DNA of 64,000 bases from positions 1 through 64,000 of the forward strand of contig JAAGNR010000070.1 in assembly GCA_010435995.1 (NCBI GenBank), written 5' to 3'. A program made the position numbers and the translations under genes. Of the stretch, positions 3,337 through 16,600 are shown piece after piece. The notes under the pieces are model-generated. The model saw only the letters and a program-made list of their open reading frames with translations, made no database searches and was not told the DNA's origin. The stretch comes from Ferrovum sp. (GTDB taxonomy: Bacteria; Pseudomonadota; Gammaproteobacteria; Burkholderiales; Ferrovaceae). Each line of letters opens with the position of its first letter. The first letter of the stretch is position 1.

Positions 3337-4602
3337 ATGTCCATGAAACGATCTCATCTCCTGTACCTGGCTCCCGTACTTTTATGCTTGGCAAGTTGCG
3401 CCACCCCCTCTGGGGTTCCTGCGATTCCGCCGCCCCTCCCACAACACCCCCCTGCGGCACCGCTGGCACAAGCCCCCGAGCCGTTTCTGGCCTGTCCTGA
3501 CAACTCCCCAGGAGAAACGCTTGCACCCAGCGTTCCGGAACCCCCTCGAGGACACTGGATTGTCAGCGACTTCAGCCAGATACCCGATTGGAGTAATGGG
3601 CCCCCCGTAGCCAGTTGGAATGCTTTTCTACAAAGCTGCCGTAAGCTTGACACCTCCCCCCTCTGGGCAAAAAGTTGCCATCAGGCCGAGGAATTGGGCG
3701 ACTATGATGAAACACGCGTAAAGAAGTTTTTTGAGGACCACTTCACCCCCTGGCAAATCGAGAATGGGGATGGTTCTACCCAAGGGCTCATCACCGGCTA
3801 TTATGAACCCCTGCTCCATGGCAGCTTGCACCGCAGCCCGCACTATCAAACCCCCTTGTACAGCCCCCCTCCAGACCTGCTGACCATCGATCTGGGAGAT
3901 ATAGCCCCCGACCTCAAAGGGCGACGGTTGCGCGGCAGAATTCAGGGAAATCATGTGGTTCCCTATTTCAGTCGTGCAGAAATCGAGGTGGAAGATCGTC
4001 CCTTGGCCGGCAACGAATTGCTCTGGGTCGATGATCCGGTAGAAGCGTTCTTTCTTCAAATTCAAGGCTCAGGTGTGGTAGAACTGGAAGACGGACAGTT
4101 GCTCCATGTGGGCTATGCCGATCAGAACGGTCACCCCTTTCGCTCCATTGCCCGAGTTCTCATACAGCAGCATCAATTGACCTTGGCTCAAACTTCCATG
4201 CAGGGCATCAAGGAATGGGCACGTCATCATCCTGCCGCCGTGCAGACCCTGCTCAATCAAAATCCCAGTTTTGTATTTTTCCAGATATTGCCCGCCGACC
4301 TTCCGGGCCCCCTGGGAACCTTGGGTGTCCCTCTGACTGGGCAGGCCAGCCTCGCCGTCGACCCCCGTGTGATCCCTCTGGGCGCGCCCGTATTCATCGC
4401 CACCAGCGCTCCGGGAACCGATCAACCCCTGCACCGTCTGATGATGGCCCAGGATACGGGGGGAGCCATTCGCGGGGCTGTCCGTGCCGATTTTTTCTGG
4501 GGCTTCGGGACAACAGCAGAACATCAAGCCGGACGAATGAAACAAGAGGGGCAACTCTGGGTATTGTACCCGCGCGGAGCCTCTCCGCCTGAAACCCGCT
4601 GA
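3337..4602 (+). CDS. mltA: Membrane-bound lytic murein transglycosylase A
   Basis: Lipobox (LCLASC), GLITGYYEP, C-terminal 3D domain AQDTGGAIRGAVRADFFWG. Confidence 0.92.
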   Translation: MSMKRSHLLYLAPVLLCLASCATPSGVPAIPPPLPQHPPAAPLAQAPEPFLACPDNSPGETLAPSVPEPPRGHWIVSDFSQIPDWSNGPPVASWNAFLQSCRKLDTSPLWAKSCHQAEELGDYDETRVKKFFEDHFTPWQIENGDGSTQGLITGYYEPLLHGSLHRSPHYQTPLYSPPPDLLTIDLGDIAPDLKGRRLRGRIQGNHVVPYFSRAEIEVEDRPLAGNELLWVDDPVEAFFLQIQGSGVVELEDGQLLHVGYADQNGHPFRSIARVLIQQHQLTLAQTSMQGIKEWARHHPAAVQTLLNQNPSFVFFQILPADLPGPLGTLGVPLTGQASLAVDPRVIPLGAPVFIATSAPGTDQPLHRLMMAQDTGGAIRGAVRADFFWGFGTTAEHQAGRMKQEGQLWVLYPRGASPPETR

Positions 4603-9199: not shown

Positions 9200-10147
9200 A
9201 TGACTCCTATGTGGAAAAAACACCCCTTACACCGTGCACACTGGGGTGCGCTACGACAGTATATTGGAATGATTCCAATCCTGCTTGCCTTCATACCGCG
9301 CCCAGCCTTCGCCTGGGGTGATGAAGGGCATGAAATTGTGGCTGCCATCGCCATGAAATTCATGGAGCCGGAGCAACGCCAGCGCCTGATCCAACTGCTC
9401 TCCCAGGATGACGATACGCTCACGGCCCACGATCCAGTCAGCGTTGCAACCTGGGCAGACCGGTATCGTGACTCGGCACAGGAGGGTCCCCATGTCCATT
9501 ATCATCAGACCCATGCATGGCATTTTGTCGATCTTGAACGCGACCACCCCAACCTGGATCGCGCATGCGCCGATCATCCCCCGCTTCCACAGGGCACCCC
9601 GGCCTCTGCAGGCCCGGCTCGTGACTGTGTGGTCGATAAAATTGAGCAATTTAACGCCGAACTGCAGCATTACAAGACAGCTGGATTTCCCTCGAAAAAT
9701 CGTGCTGAAGCCATTCTGGCCGTCAAATATCTGATCCATTTTATTGGCGATTTGCACCAACCCATGCATGCCATCGACGATCATGATCGGGGGGGGAACG
9801 AACTTAAGGTCAAGTGGCCCCCCGTCCATGCCGGCAGTCTCCATCACTATTGGGACACGGTATTTGTGGAACGACTGGGAACCGATGTCACCCTCGTCGC
9901 GTCTACCCTTGCCGCCCGAATCACCCCGGAAAATCTTCAGGCATGGCAACAGGGTTCAGCCCGCGACTGGGCACGGGAATCCTTTGACACTGCCCGCTCC
10001 GTCGCCTATGACCCCTTGCCAACCCCCAATGAAGCGGGGCATTACCTGCTATCTGACACTTATGTAGACCAAGCCACGGAAGTGGTGGCAGTACAACTGG
10101 AAGAAGCTGGAGTACGTCTCGCCTACTGCCTAGACAAGGACTTATGA
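9200..10147 (+). CDS. S1/P1-family zinc-dependent nuclease, secreted
   Basis: Signal-peptide-like N-terminus ending AFA/WGDEGHEIVA; YLIHFIGDLHQPMHAIDDHDRGGN and LHHYWD metal-binding motifs. Start may be 9209 or 9269. Confidence 0.88.
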   Translation: MTPMWKKHPLHRAHWGALRQYIGMIPILLAFIPRPAFAWGDEGHEIVAAIAMKFMEPEQRQRLIQLLSQDDDTLTAHDPVSVATWADRYRDSAQEGPHVHYHQTHAWHFVDLERDHPNLDRACADHPPLPQGTPASAGPARDCVVDKIEQFNAELQHYKTAGFPSKNRAEAILAVKYLIHFIGDLHQPMHAIDDHDRGGNELKVKWPPVHAGSLHHYWDTVFVERLGTDVTLVASTLAARITPENLQAWQQGSARDWARESFDTARSVAYDPLPTPNEAGHYLLSDTYVDQATEVVAVQLEEAGVRLAYCLDKDL

Positions 10148-10148
10148 C

Positions 10149-11510
10149 ATGAATGCTGCTGTATTGATCGTCGATGATGATGCCGACCTACTCCACTTGC
10201 TCTCCTTGCGTCTGCGCACCGCCGGCTACCGGGTACGTACCGCCACCTCAGCTGAAACCGCCTTGGCTGAAGTCGCTGCGGAACGACCAGGAGTGGTGTT
10301 GAGTGACGTCCAGCTTCCCGGCATGGATGGTTTGCGCCTGTTCGATGAAATTCATTCCCGCGACCCCACCCTTCCGGTCATTCTGCTGACGGCCCATGGC
10401 ACCATTCCTGATGCCGTGGAAGCTACAGCCAAGGGCGTTTTTGGCTACCTGACCAAACCCTTTGATGCTGCCCTGTTGCTGGAAAAAATCAAATCCGCCT
10501 TGACCCTCTACGCGCAAGTAGAAGCCCCATCCACCGCCGATGACCATTGGCGCGAAGAAATACTGAGTCGTTCCCAGCGGATGGCGGAACTGTTGAATGA
10601 AGCCCATCTTGTTGCCCGCTCCGATGTCAGCGTGTTGATCCGTGGCGAAAGTGGCAGCGGCAAAGAGCTTCTGGCCCGCGCTCTACACCGCGCCAGCACG
10701 CGCGCTCAAAACCCCTTTATTGCCCTTAATTGCAGTGCAATTCCTGAAGCTCTACTGGAATCCGAACTCTTTGGACATGAAAAGGGTGCCTTTACCGGCG
10801 CCATTCAAGCGCACCAAGGCCTATTCCGGTCTGCCCAAGGGGGAACACTGTTTCTCGATGAAATCGGTGACATGCCCCTCAATCTCCAAGCCAAACTGTT
10901 GCGCGTTCTGGAAGAACGCAAAGTACGCCCAGTGGGGTCTAATCATAGTCACGCAGTGGATGTGCGCGTACTTTCCGCCACCCACCAAAATCTGGAAGCT
11001 GCCATTACCACCGATCAATTTCGCGAAGACTTGTATTACCGCCTGAATGTTGTGGAGTTGACCCTTCCGCCATTGCGCGAGCGACGGGAAGATATTCCCT
11101 TACTCGTCAAACATTTTCTGGATCGGCTGAACAAAAAATATGGTAAGCATCTCAATGGGTTTGCCCCCGATGCGCTCTCGGTATTGTCCACAGCGCCCTG
11201 GCCAGGAAATATTCGTCAACTCCACAACGTAGTGGAGCAGGTGTGTGCCCTGTCTACCACCCCCATCATTCCCCTCTCCCTGGTGCAACGTGCTCTGCGC
11301 CTTCCAGCAGTGGAAATCCTCAGTTTGACCGAAGCGCGCGAACGCTTTGAACGCGACTATCTTACGGGCTTACTCAAGCTCACCGAAGGTCAGGTTGCCG
11401 ACGCCGCCCGCTTGGCCCAACGCAATCGTACGGAGTTCTACCGCCTGTTACAAAAATATGGCCTGACCCCTGACAGTTTCCGCACCGTCTCTTTACAACG
11501 ACAAGAATAG
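10149..11510 (+). CDS. glrR: Sigma-54-dependent response regulator, GlrR/QseF-like
   Basis: Receiver domain ([36 protein letters not shown]), AAA+ [13 protein letters not shown] and GAFTGA loop, Fis-type HTH at C-terminus; cognate kinase and QseG-like genes nearby. Confidence 0.88.
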
Positions 11511-11552
11511 TATCTAATAAATCATATGGTTATATAATACCCCCGCAGCGCA

Positions 11553-11570
11553 TGTCGCTTATCCACGACA
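11553..11570 (+). promoter_or_regulatory. Candidate GlrR-type enhancer site TGTC-N10-GACA
   Basis: Sequence TGTCgcttatccacGACA; matches the palindrome described for E. coli GlrR. Confidence 0.5.
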
Positions 11571-11686
11571 AAATCTCCGCCTGCTCACCCACTGCCCTCC
11601 CTCAATCCGATAAAATCACCAAAAAACTTCTACGATCAATTCATAACAAACTGTTAAATATAGATTTAATTTAATAGCCCGGGATA

Positions 11687-11703
11687 TGGCACGAACATTG
11701 CTT
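11687..11703 (+). promoter_or_regulatory. Sigma-54 (-24/-12) promoter
   Basis: TGGCACGaacaTTGCTT: consensus TGGCACG-N4-TTGC with exact GG-10 bp-GC spacing, just upstream of opgH. Confidence 0.75.
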
Positions 11704-11713
11704 TAGTAAGGGC

Positions 11714-13675
11714 ATGAATCCCTACGACCTCACACCGCTGACCCATCCTGAACTTCAGGCCCCCCCCCTCCATCGTGGCTCCATGGTTTCTCGACCGTGG
11801 TTCGGATTTTGGAACGGCTTCGTAGAGTCCCTCCGTGAAGCCTTGCGCCCCCCTCGCGCAAGCATCACACCGGATCAGCCTTGGGAACGTGCGGCACAAC
11901 AACGCCGTCGCCTCCTGATCGCGGGGATTCTTTTTTCTTCTCTGGTGGCTGGCTGGATGCAGTGGCCGACCCCACACCACGGAGCAATCGCAGTACTATC
12001 GTGGCTCCAGTGGAGCCTGTTCGTCCTGCTCTTTGCTTGGGTTGCCGCAGGCTTCATGACGGCTCTCATGGGTTTCTGGGTGCAACTGCGTCCCGACCCT
12101 TACGCCCTCTCTCTCCGCTCGGCCAAATTTGTTTCCCTCTCCGGCAGTGAAGCCCGTACCGCTGTCATTATGCCCATCTGCAATGAGCAAGTGACCAGCG
12201 TCTTCGCCGGTTTACGTGCTACCTGCGAATCCCTGGCGGCCACCAAGGATGCCGCGCTATTCGATGTGTTCATCCTATCCGACAGCTTCGATGAGAAAAT
12301 TCTGGCTGAAGAACACTTGGCTTGGTCAGAACTACAGGCGCTTCTCGGTTCAAGCTTACGTATCTATTATCGGGTACGTCAACGCCGGGGGCGCAAAAAA
12401 GCCGGCAATGTGGCAGATTTCTGTCGCCGCTGGGGCAAAAACTATCGCTATATGGTCGTGTTGGATGCCGACAGTACCATGACCGGACTCAGCCTCACCA
12501 CTCTGGTCCGACTCATGGAGAAAGATCCGCAGGCAGGCATCATTCAAACCGCTCCGCGCTCTGTAGGACTGGACACCTTTCACGCCCGCAGCCAGCAGTT
12601 TGCTGGACGAGTCAGCGGACGCCTGTTCACCGCCGGAATGCAATACTGGCAACTCGGCGAGTCCCACTACTGGGGTCATAACGCCATCCTGCGGGTCGCC
12701 CCTTTCATGCAACATTGTGGACTGGCCCTACTTCCTGGCAAGGGAAGCATGAGTGGCGAAATTCTTTCCCATGACTTTGTTGAGGCAGCGCTCTTACGTC
12801 GGGCTGGCTATCATACGTGGATCGTACCTTCCCTTGAAGGCAGTTACGAACAACAACCCTCCCATCTTTTGGAAGAACTACAACGTGATCGTCGCTGGTG
12901 CCAAGGCAATCTGAAAAACTTCCGCTTGCTTTGGGAGCCTGGTTTTCACGCCGTTCATCGCGCCATGCTCGTCACCGGCGTCCTCGCCTATGCCTCAGCC
13001 CCTCTCTGGCTGATTTACCTGATCACCAGTGTGGGACTGACCCTTTTAGCCCCCACCTCTACAGCCATTCTTCCCCCCTTCTGGCCAATTACCCTGGGAA
13101 TGCTGTTCGTCCCCCGTGTACTCTCCTGGCTCACGGTATTCATGCACCGCGAACAGGATCAATATGGTGGAACCGGCGCTTTTCTCGCCAGCGCCTTGGC
13201 CGAAACCACCCTTTCCGTCCTGCAGGCCCCCTTGCGCATGGTTGCCCATACCCTTTTCGTCACCACCGCCTTGACGGGATTCCGGCTCGAATGGAAGTCT
13301 CCGGCCCGCGAAGCCACCACCCTTTCCTGGTCCGCCACCTGGGCCCATTACCGCACCTTGTTTATCACGGCTGCAGGCACGTTGAGCATGGTTTCCCTGT
13401 ACAGTGCCCACACAGCGCTGTACCTCCTGCCCGTTGTCCTGCCCTGGCTGCTGTCAACCCCCATGGCCGTCTTCACCAGTCATTCAACGCGCTCATTGAG
13501 AGTTCAGGGCATTCCACTGTTCGACATCCCCGAAGAAAGACGTATTCCTTCCGTATTACGGCGGGCTTGGCAATATGCCGGCTTGGCAGGTCAACGACCC
13601 TCGTCAGGGTTGCGCCCCAGTACCGTTCTTGTCCCCGCCTGGTCGCGAACTCAAGTGGTGCTCGATCGCTCGTAA
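11714..13675 (+). CDS. opgH: Glucans biosynthesis glucosyltransferase H
   Basis: IMPICNEQVTSVFAGL, VLDADSTMTG, SHDFVEAALLRRAGY, RRWCQGNLKNFRLL and multiple TM segments. Confidence 0.9.
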   Translation: MNPYDLTPLTHPELQAPPLHRGSMVSRPWFGFWNGFVESLREALRPPRASITPDQPWERAAQQRRRLLIAGILFSSLVAGWMQWPTPHHGAIAVLSWLQWSLFVLLFAWVAAGFMTALMGFWVQLRPDPYALSLRSAKFVSLSGSEARTAVIMPICNEQVTSVFAGLRATCESLAATKDAALFDVFILSDSFDEKILAEEHLAWSELQALLGSSLRIYYRVRQRRGRKKAGNVADFCRRWGKNYRYMVVLDADSTMTGLSLTTLVRLMEKDPQAGIIQTAPRSVGLDTFHARSQQFAGRVSGRLFTAGMQYWQLGESHYWGHNAILRVAPFMQHCGLALLPGKGSMSGEILSHDFVEAALLRRAGYHTWIVPSLEGSYEQQPSHLLEELQRDRRWCQGNLKNFRLLWEPGFHAVHRAMLVTGVLAYASAPLWLIYLITSVGLTLLAPTSTAILPPFWPITLGMLFVPRVLSWLTVFMHREQDQYGGTGAFLASALAETTLSVLQAPLRMVAHTLFVTTALTGFRLEWKSPAREATTLSWSATWAHYRTLFITAAGTLSMVSLYSAHTALYLLPVVLPWLLSTPMAVFTSHSTRSLRVQGIPLFDIPEERRIPSVLRRAWQYAGLAGQRPSSGLRPSTVLVPAWSRTQVVLDRS

Positions 13676-14254
13676 CTCCTGTATTTGGCGCGATAGCACG
13701 TCGGCTTTCCCTTGCATTTCCTGAGATTGCCGAGCCAACTGCTCCAATTGGCCCTCGATGTACAGCTGGGTTTTGGCCCATTGATCCAACCAATGAGACA
13801 GGGGCAGTAACTCTGCAGTTTCGTTGCGGACTGTCTGTACCTGTAAGTCCTGAAGCAATTGAAGTGCCTGCTGTGTCGCTCCTCCCTGATGTTGCAAAAG
13901 CAACAACTGTGCCCGCCGCAACCGATCCAACGGTCCTTCTGGTTGTGGCTGTGACTCAAGGCTCAACAACACCTCCTTTCTGGCTCCAACCGACAGACTC
14001 ATGTCTTGGGTTAACTGGGATAAAGCCATATTGAGAAACCCCTCCCCCTGCGTATCGGGACGACTCTTCGTGGACTCCATAGTCTTGATGGGCAAGGGAG
14101 GCAAGACAGGAGAGGTCACCGTTGGAACGACCATCGGGGTACACCCTGACAGGCTCAACCACACCCCGCAGGAAATCCATAACCGAAACTTTCTCGCCTG
14201 CACTTTACTTGAATTCATGGGACTCTCTAAATACGATGTAAAATTACTGCTCAA
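13604..14254 (-). CDS. Putative lipoprotein in the QseG-like position of a glr/qse locus
   Basis: Lipobox LSLSGC; follows a GlrK-like kinase; coiled-coil-like C-terminus. Confidence 0.6.
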   Translation of the reverse strand: MSSNFTSYLESPMNSSKVQARKFRLWISCGVWLSLSGCTPMVVPTVTSPVLPPLPIKTMESTKSRPDTQGEGFLNMALSQLTQDMSLSVGARKEVLLSLESQPQPEGPLDRLRRAQLLLLQHQGGATQQALQLLQDLQVQTVRNETAELLPLSHWLDQWAKTQLYIEGQLEQLARQSQEMQGKADVLSRQIQELRAIEHHLSSRPGGDKNGTGAQP

Positions 14255-15735
14255 CCAACCGCGACCCCTTCGTCTTCCGCACCCGGAATTTCCAGATGAA
14301 AATGAGCCCCGCGAGGGCTCGGCTCGAGTCGCACTGTCCCCCCGTGGGCCTGTACCAACTCACGAACAATGGACAACCCGACACCACTTCCCTTGCGCGC
14401 ACCGGAAGGTTGCCGTTTCCCCTGATAAAACGGGTTAAAAATTTGTGGGCCATCCTGCGGATCCACTCCCGGCCCCTCATCCACGACATCCAGATGGAAC
14501 CCCTTGCCTGCAGGGATAAGGTTGATCAAAACCGTCCCCGCTTCAGGGGAAAAACGAATCGCATTGATCAGAAGGTTGCTGGCAACCGTATCCAATTTGT
14601 CGGCATCCATCCATACTCGGCACACTGGGCCATGCACTGCGACACGCAATGCCTTAGCCTGTATTTGCAAACGCTGCCGCTCCACCAACTGGTCAAGCAA
14701 CCCACGAATATCAATCCACTGACGATGCAGATGCTGTGCTCCAGAAGCCGCAGCATTGTACTGCAATAAGCTTTCAATCTGGTGCTGCAGGGCCAAAGAA
14801 TTATCTCTCAGAATCACCAAAATTTCTTCCTGAGCCCCATTGATGGGCCCTGGTACCTCTTCTGACAGGAGCGCGACACCCTCCCTCAAATTGGCCAGAG
14901 GAGTTTTCAGTTCGTGGGAAATATGACGAAAGAACTGGAGCTTATCCGACTCCAAGAGCGCCAGTCGCTGTTGCACCCAGCGCACACGTTCCCCCAGTTG
15001 CCGCAAATCCGTGGGGCCGCCAAAAGGCTTGGAAGCACTGGATTGGGGCTGACCCAGCTGTCGTATGGCGCGATCCAGTTGCGCAAAAGACCAGGACAAC
15101 CAGGTTCCCAAAAGCAACGCCAGGGCAATCGCCACCGTGGCCGCCGTGATCCCCATGGTAATCAGATCCTGTCGCTGCTTATCAAATGCCTGCAACAATT
15201 TTTGGTTCTGGTCGGCCAGACGATTTTGCACCACTTTCTGGATTTGCTGATCCACTAACCCCAGCTGCCCAAATGCCGCAATCACATTATCCGTTGCCGA
15301 CGGGGAAAAAAAATCTCCTCCAGGTTCCAGCAAAGGCGAAATGGTCTCTTCCGTCAAAGCCGTCCATTGGGTCAACAGAGGCGTCAAATCTTCGGCATCT
15401 CCCCGACTCAGAACCCCCACCAAGTGCTCCCCCTGCTCCAGGGAATGAGTGATATCCTGACGCAGTGAACGATCATGCAACACCAGGTATTGACGGGTCT
15501 GACGCTCCAGTGTCACGGTAATGTCCTGGAGCTCGCGAACCTCCTCCGTACGCTGCAACGCTTTGGCGGGGAAATCTCGGCTGTCCCGACTCAGGGTATC
15601 CACCGCCACGAGAGCGCGCAACAGTGCCCCGCCCAAAAGCACCACGATCCCGGCGAAAGCTATCCACAGCAAATGCTTAAATGAAAATGGAAAAGGTGCA
15701 CGCAGCAAAAACCTTTTGAAACGCGCCCAGGTCAC
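14251..15735 (-). CDS. glrK: Sensor histidine kinase, GlrK/QseE-like
   Basis: H-box FFRHISHELKTPLANLREG, N-box NLLINAIRFSPEAG, G-boxes DEGPGVDP and GSGVGLSIVRELV; two TM segments. Confidence 0.88.
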   Translation of the reverse strand: MTWARFKRFLLRAPFPFSFKHLLWIAFAGIVVLLGGALLRALVAVDTLSRDSRDFPAKALQRTEEVRELQDITVTLERQTRQYLVLHDRSLRQDITHSLEQGEHLVGVLSRGDAEDLTPLLTQWTALTEETISPLLEPGGDFFSPSATDNVIAAFGQLGLVDQQIQKVVQNRLADQNQKLLQAFDKQRQDLITMGITAATVAIALALLLGTWLSWSFAQLDRAIRQLGQPQSSASKPFGGPTDLRQLGERVRWVQQRLALLESDKLQFFRHISHELKTPLANLREGVALLSEEVPGPINGAQEEILVILRDNSLALQHQIESLLQYNAAASGAQHLHRQWIDIRGLLDQLVERQRLQIQAKALRVAVHGPVCRVWMDADKLDTVASNLLINAIRFSPEAGTVLINLIPAGKGFHLDVVDEGPGVDPQDGPQIFNPFYQGKRQPSGARKGSGVGLSIVRELVQAHGGTVRLEPSPRGAHFHLEIPGAEDEGVAVG

Positions 15736-15767: not shown

Positions 15768-16295
15768 CTACTTCCCTGTGCGGTACAGATAATGGGAGAA
15801 GTGCGAGTAATTGGTGCTGACGGCGCGAAACAAGCGATCCAGGCTCACGATGGCATGCTCCACAATATTGATGGCAATAAAGGGGTGCTCGGACTTCAAA
15901 CGTTTGTACATGGTTCGGGACAGTTTGAGCACCTGGGTAGAGGGCTCCTTCACCACCAACCGCACTGAACGAGGCAATTTGTCAAAAAACGACATTTCCC
16001 CCAGCATTTCACCTGAGCCGGCATAAGCAATTTCATTTTCCTGATCCTGCTCTACAAATGCCAAGGCAATCTGCCCCTGAACCACGAAATACAAAGCATC
16101 TCCCACTGATCCAATTTCGGAGAGGATTTTTCCCTTGTCGAATTCCAGATAAGTCAGATACTCCAACAGGGTACGAACCTCATTGACCGTCAGAGATTCA
16201 CACAGATAGTGATGATCGAGAAGCCGTGACAAACGGATTTGCTGGGTTGCGGGGTCGTGATCAATGGCATGGGTCAACACAGATTTGCTGGTCAT
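15768..16295 (-). CDS. Cyclic-nucleotide-binding-domain protein without an evident HTH
   Basis: GDALYFVVQGQIAL, GSGEMLGEMSFFDKLPRSVRLVVKE; start MTSKSVL at 16295. Confidence 0.8.
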   Translation of the reverse strand: MTSKSVLTHAIDHDPATQQIRLSRLLDHHYLCESLTVNEVRTLLEYLTYLEFDKGKILSEIGSVGDALYFVVQGQIALAFVEQDQENEIAYAGSGEMLGEMSFFDKLPRSVRLVVKEPSTQVLKLSRTMYKRLKSEHPFIAINIVEHAIVSLDRLFRAVSTNYSHFSHYLYRTGK

Positions 16296-16600
16296 AAATC
16301 GTGTCCTTAAAGTATGGAAGCTCCGAAGAGCGACAAGCAGACCGATCCTGCCATCGCGCATTAAGGAAATTATACCAAGGATTGCGCCATCCTCCGATGA
16401 TTTTTACCCTCACGCCCAGCAAACCATTCAATCTGTTGCTTAATATGTTCTGGCGAAGGAACCATTGACCGTATGCAATCCTTCGATTATGTTGTCCCTA
16501 TAGGTCGATTTATTCCTCACATCAATTGACGAACGATATCGCCAATCGATAGCATATGGCGGACATCCTTCCTCATTTATCCCCCTCTGGTACACACTGT

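Follow-up and report, generated by a model that had tools for sequence, protein, structure and literature searches.

A putative GlrR-activated sigma-54 promoter with glmY-like architecture precedes the glucan glucosyltransferase gene opgH in Ferrovum and many other Burkholderiales

The window analysed here, a stretch of 64,000 nucleotides from Ferrovum sp. (contig JAAGNR010000070.1 of assembly GCA_010435995.1, which comprises 1.85 Mb on 96 contigs and is 87% complete), carries a gene for a GlrR-like response regulator that is followed on the same strand by opgH, with genes for a QseG-like lipoprotein and a GlrK-like sensor histidine kinase beyond it (Table 1). The layout was indeed as the original prediction had described it, with glrR ending at 11510 and the lipoprotein and kinase genes lying on the minus strand, convergently with opgH. 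At the other side of glrR, a gene for an S1/P1 nuclease (9200-10147) ends 1 bp before glrR and, because of this short gap, is probably co-transcribed with it. A small cyclic-nucleotide-binding-domain protein is encoded at 15768-16361 on the minus strand, just upstream of the kinase gene and in the same orientation.

Table 1. Genes and predicted regulatory features at the glrR-opgH locus (window coordinates)
Feature	Position	Strand	Remarks
glrR	10149..11510	+	response regulator, GlrR/QseF type
Distal GlrR operator CGTCTCTTTACAACGACA	11486..11503	+	predicted; one mismatch, in the outer half-sites; within the 3' end of glrR
IHF-like site AATCATATGGTTA	11520..11532	+	one mismatch to WATCAANNNNTTR
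Proximal GlrR operator TGTCGCTTATCCACGACA	11553..11570	+	predicted; exact TGTC-N10-GACA
IHF-like site TAACAAACTGTTA	11644..11656	+	one mismatch
Sigma-54 promoter TGGCACGAACATTGC (-24/-12)	11687..11701	+	predicted; consensus match
Predicted transcription start (A of the opgH ATG)	11714	+	leaderless mRNA; from glmY spacing
opgH (mdoH), glucan glucosyltransferase	11714..13675	+	NCBIfam NF003960
QseG-like lipoprotein gene	13604..14254	-	convergent with opgH; overlaps the opgH 3' end
GlrK-like sensor histidine kinase gene	14251..15735	-	convergent with opgH

The glrR product has the domain composition of GlrR/QseF, namely a REC domain (Pfam PF00072), a sigma-54-activating AAA+ domain (PF00158) and a Fis-type HTH, with the GAFTGA motif and an RNRTEFY helix visible in the translation. 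It is 54% identical over 443 amino acids to E. coli GlrR, and its recognition helix is nearly identical to that of E. coli (RNRTEFYKLLSRH). The GlrR family PRK15115 was the best of 112 NCBIfam families for this protein, with 577.7 bits under a cut-off of 763, and because this equivalog cut-off was missed we limit our claim to a GlrR-like function. An rpoN gene was found in the same genome. The kinase contains HisKA and HATPase_c domains and shares 35% identity over 291 amino acids with E. coli GlrK (E = 1.6e-52), its best NCBIfam family being CreC, below cut-off. The lipoprotein, which had no Pfam or NCBIfam match, resembles QseG weakly, through a C-terminal motif of the LExLxxIERxLxxR type that both have in common (blastp E 0.18; E = 6.6e-9 in a one-sequence profile search; hhalign probability 38% over 41 columns). 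OpgH passed its family cut-off (NF003960, 839.8 bits versus 829). Co-regulation of opgG in this genome was considered and rejected, as opgG is located on another contig and has no operator there, so that the opgH promoter would cover only part of the pathway.

Read from glrR towards opgH, the elements follow each other in the order operator, IHF-like site, operator, IHF-like site, sigma-54 motif, 12 bases and ATG. The two motifs that had been reported initially, TGTC-N10-GACA at 11553-11570 and the sigma-54 promoter at 11687-11701, were both present. The two 18-bp operators are spaced 67 bp apart and start 134 and 201 bp 5' of the -24 element, i.e. at enhancer distance. Both IHF-like sites and the distal operator deviate from their consensus by one mismatch each; the distal sites of relatives occupy the same place in the glrR end and are exact in most. 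A promoter and terminator scan of the interval between glrR and opgH revealed neither a sigma-70 promoter nor a terminator, and the same interval gave no Rfam match; in place of the small-RNA product that defines glmY genes, opgH comes next. The earlier estimate that about one operator per 64 kb would arise by chance was borne out as well, with 1.13 matches expected per window from shuffles and one found. Since a lone operator is thus roughly a once-per-window event, the case rests on position and conservation.

Conservation was examined in the Ferrovaceae by scanning the 330 bp upstream of opgH, which is present in 18 of 32 genomes (that of the window included); the other 17 OpgH proteins are 54-73% identical to that of the window. 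An exact operator occurred in 17 of these 18 upstream regions (dinucleotide-shuffle mean 0.07, with a maximum of 2 regions in 500 shuffles), and 13 of them contained an exact operator pair with a spacing of 66-68 bp, an arrangement that none of the shuffles produced. Moreover, all 18 regions contained a sigma-54 motif whose end lies 12-15 nt upstream of the ATG, 17 of them in its strict form (shuffle mean 0.02 for the latter). A strong glrR match accompanied opgH in all Ferrovaceae genomes but two, where a contig end interrupts the locus. In the opgH loci of more distant relatives (L042-L046), no exact operator was present within 1.5 kb upstream; opgG or another promoter may lie further upstream there.

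Loss of the motifs from relatives had been named as the main way in which the proposal could fail, and this did not occur: motifs and spacing are kept before opgH or opgGH not only in the Ferrovaceae, but in many other Burkholderiales. The named-genome set consisted of the best 80 OpgH-match loci, nearly all from Burkholderiales and including Ferrovaceae MAGs and Ferrovum myxofaciens, whose OpgH is 71% identical to that of the window. Of these loci, 74 had enough upstream sequence; many loci come from the same genera, so that the counts are neither independent events nor a sample of all Burkholderiales. Exact operators were present in 71/74 usable opg upstream regions (0.4 in shuffles, 0 with the reversed motif), and an operator followed at the right distance by TGGC-N7-TTGC in 55/74 (shuffles 0). 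The operators are 65-68 bp apart in most named loci, and the distance from the proximal operator to the sigma-54 motif is usually 112-113 bp in Burkholderiales and 134-135 bp in the genus of the window. Among 76 promoters, an IHF-like site with at most one mismatch was located between the operators in 84% (4% in base shuffles) and between the proximal operator and the sigma-54 motif in 86% (9% in base shuffles). According to record titles, the genera with the full set include Ferrovum, Variovorax, Acidovorax, Hydrogenophaga, Polaromonas, Xenophilus, Pseudacidovorax, Rubrivivax, Rhizobacter, Aquabacterium, Ramlibacter, Saezia and Thiobacillus. The first gene after the element is opgH in some loci and opgG in others. 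While glrR adjoins most of the conserved opg loci, seven do not have it directly upstream, and of these six retained an exact operator and three the full set, indicating an association of the element with opg and not with the end of glrR. At the level of sequence, the elements, their order, their spacing and their deep conservation with opg genes are thereby established.

We propose, with a probability of roughly 0.87, that the 200 bp between glrR and opgH form a GlrR-activated, IHF-assisted and sigma-54-dependent opgH promoter of the glmY architecture, with a leaderless start near 11714. In this mechanism, a physiological signal would lead the GlrK/QseG-like pair to phosphorylate GlrR, which would bind both operators while IHF would bend the DNA at its two sites. 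The AAA+ domain of GlrR would then open the sigma-54 polymerase complex at the -24/-12 element, and transcription would begin at around 11714, on the opgH start codon itself or up to three bases ahead of it, yielding a leaderless mRNA for the glucan glucosyltransferase. Most likely, judging from these sequence comparisons, a GlrR-type switch drives periplasmic glucan synthesis in Ferrovum as well as in many other Burkholderiales.

The prediction of a leaderless mRNA follows from the distance of 12 nt between the GC of the -12 element and the A of the opgH ATG (12-15 nt across the family), which leaves the promoter too near the ATG for a normal leader. In glmY, a gap of 12 nt likewise lies between the promoter's TGC and the base annotated as the 5' end of the RNA, and with this spacing opgH transcription would begin at or next to the start codon. 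The only sequence resembling a Shine-Dalgarno motif before the ATG, AAGGG, lies upstream of the predicted start and would thus fall outside the mRNA. Alternatively, the promoter may be real and the mRNA not leaderless, either through an additional upstream transcription start or through translation from the internal Met24, which is invariant across 15 aligned OpgH proteins. Sigma-54 starts may indeed shift by a few bases, and the first ATG is found 21-34 nt downstream of the promoter in some Burkholderiales (32-34 nt in L076, L087, L083 and L096), so that the 12-15 nt feature is widespread and not universal. However, in the codons for OpgH residues 1-23 the first, second and third positions carry 6, 10 and 35 changes, respectively, with M1 and P3 being invariant, and this coding constraint makes the ATG at 11714 the likely true start. 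Moreover, an in-frame upstream start codon is absent in 17 of the 18 family members, the scan yielded no sigma-70 promoter, and a spacing of 12-13 nt recurs in opgH-first, opgG-first and small-ORF-first operons of Ferrovaceae and Comamonadaceae, 12 or 13 nt being the commonest spacing in the latter. We therefore regard a leadered transcript or a start at Met24 as rather unlikely, and retain the leaderless reading. In Variovorax (L099, ~3709-3912), the sigma-54 promoter is followed after 12 nt by a 67-amino-acid ORF (MTALTSPSFALRQQRD...) directly before opgH, and the Xenophilus locus L080 shows a similar arrangement.

Other explanations concern the promoter itself. With about 1.1 operator matches expected per window and single-motif matches being common throughout the genome (24 forward matches versus 13 for a control pattern), the operator could be a chance occurrence and the sigma-54 match a coincidence. 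However, the joint position and spacing, conserved before opg in divergent relatives among the Ferrovaceae and the named Burkholderiales and never seen in shuffles, refute this reading, to which we attach a practically negligible probability. The promoter and operators could also be genuine while another sigma-54 activator of the NtrC family uses them in Ferrovum. A first pass of the GlrR search returned 27 candidate matches in the genome of the window, some of them likely other activators of the family, and other sigma-54 activators encoded in these genomes could in principle act here. Such a substitution is nevertheless very improbable in view of operators that match the E. coli GlrR sites in their inner bases too, a recognition helix close to that of E. 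coli, the adjacency of glrR in most loci and the co-occurrence of glrR and opgH in the family. Finally, the overlap of the distal operator with the 3' end of glrR, together with the small RNA produced from the equivalent E. coli promoter, might hint at a conserved element that serves glrR, by autoregulation or through an intergenic RNA, and not opgH. Against this, the sigma-54 site is oriented towards opgH, with 12-15 nt left to the opgH ATG in 18/18 Ferrovaceae, the element is retained at opg loci that lack glrR immediately upstream, and the interval is devoid of Rfam matches and terminators, making this explanation very improbable. A GlrR-activated opgH promoter thus continues to be the reading that we adopt.

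Of the 24 exact operators in the genome of the window, the opgH site ranked second by a matrix built from the other Ferrovaceae sites. The first and third ranks were taken by both members of an operator pair on contig C92 that, together with a sigma-54 motif on the same strand, precedes ggpS, divergently from nhaA. The ggpS product is a glucosylglycerol-phosphate synthase with a phosphatase domain (TIGR02398, 659 bits, cut-off 569). This arrangement is kept in five genomes of the genus, one of which has one site with a single mismatch, and it represents the only other strong operator pair in the genus Ferrovum. Another set of paired sites (C66:58917/58993) was dropped, being weak by the matrix. 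The ggpS loci (L016, 2393-2900, from contig C92; L054, 1340-2020; and L208) have a long leader, of ~200 nt in the genome of the window, that holds short and partly conserved ORFs such as MSTYDIPTVTLFEKFIRRRR... The predicted targets opgH and ggpS are both osmoadaptation genes in a broad sense, and the suggestion that osmoregulation is the meaning of the switch is partly supported. However, low osmolarity favours the production of periplasmic glucans and high osmolarity that of glucosylglycerol. A single osmotic signal for both is therefore not straightforward, and we do not claim osmolarity as the signal.

Three Ferrovaceae genomes of one genus (g6) do not contain opgH, but have kept glrR, the operator pair and the sigma-54 motif. 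In these loci, just downstream of glrR (L047 on the plus strand, L048 and L049 on the minus strand), the promoter precedes a tiny ORF that ends in GGFGGTGAPC or GGFGGTGAAL and that in one species comprises three GGFGGTGAP repeats, possibly representing a new small-peptide family. Outside this genus, the frames inspected for the GGFGGTG pattern were unrelated and longer. In other orders of the class, an operator pair and a sigma-54 motif were observed before a tiny membrane-like ORF (L217), and the same architecture before an exported EF-hand-like protein (L218 and L219, the latter with a glrR fragment). Applied to 370 genomes of the class, the strict two-operator pattern matched 6 genomes, with 0 control matches. 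A loose operator plus sigma-54 pattern, applied across the order, exceeded its control about four to five times, with many of the matches being intragenic, and was too noisy to define a regulon by itself. When the window, the ggpS loci and the glrR-slot loci were searched for GlmY/GlmZ or other known RNAs, a single tRNA was the only match.

This diversity raises the idea, to which we give even odds, that lineages have exchanged the cargo of an ancient and modular output slot of the GlrK-QseG-GlrR system, the glmY-type GlrR promoter. Enterobacteria would use it for the small RNA GlmY, many Burkholderiales for leaderless opgH or opgGH mRNAs, the genus Ferrovum for ggpS, and another genus of the Ferrovaceae for the tiny GGFGGTGAP(C) peptide gene. 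In that case, starting sigma-54 transcription at the AUG would represent a conserved route to leaderless mRNAs under an envelope-responsive activator. Should the leaderless prediction hold, opgH would offer a clear and conserved case of a sigma-54 promoter with transcription from the start codon. A conserved link between GlrR, sigma-54 and opg would join two questions, namely how osmoregulated periplasmic glucans are controlled at the level of transcription and which signal GlrK/QseE senses, and would make both testable in easily grown Burkholderiales such as Variovorax and Hydrogenophaga.

The TGTCN10GACA consensus for QseF is cited in PMC8745638, and the operator consensus used here was based on that paper and on the E. 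coli sequence itself. A survey of sigma-54 regulation (PMC3162934) mentions QseF-like activators, and no opg or mdo genes. Full-text literature searches returned no link between GlrR/QseF and opg/mdo genes or glucans; an earlier report in the subscription literature, which lay outside their scope, is possible. The E. coli opgGH operon encodes the same biosynthetic enzyme as opgH of the window, but neither a GlrR operator nor a sigma-54 motif turned up when 600 bases around its start were scanned. In E. coli, QseF activates glmY and rpoE, and QseG controls the kinase (PMC6075780). The sigma-54 promoter of rpoE (PMC6075780) likewise places an envelope-homeostasis gene under QseF, while its target differs. 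The closest parallel is the glmY promoter of E. coli MG1655, with the operators TGTCTGTAAATCACGACA, TGTCGCTTTCTGGCGACA and TGTCTCTTTTTAGCGACA. The last two, spaced 63 bp apart, flank a perfect IHF consensus, and from the start of the last operator it is 107 bp to that of the sigma-54 motif. Both promoters share the operator bases including the inner ones (TGTCGCY...GCGACA), the order of operators, IHF-like sites and sigma-54 motif with near-equal spacing, and a 12-nt gap between the -12 element and the first base of the transcript (annotated in glmY and predicted for opgH). They differ in that glmY has three operators, whereas opgH has two, in that glmY is overlapped by a sigma-70 promoter of a kind that the scan did not find at opgH, and in that glmY yields a small RNA, whereas the opgH promoter would yield a protein-coding and presumably leaderless mRNA. 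This comparison suggests that GlmY is one of several outputs with a common promoter design.
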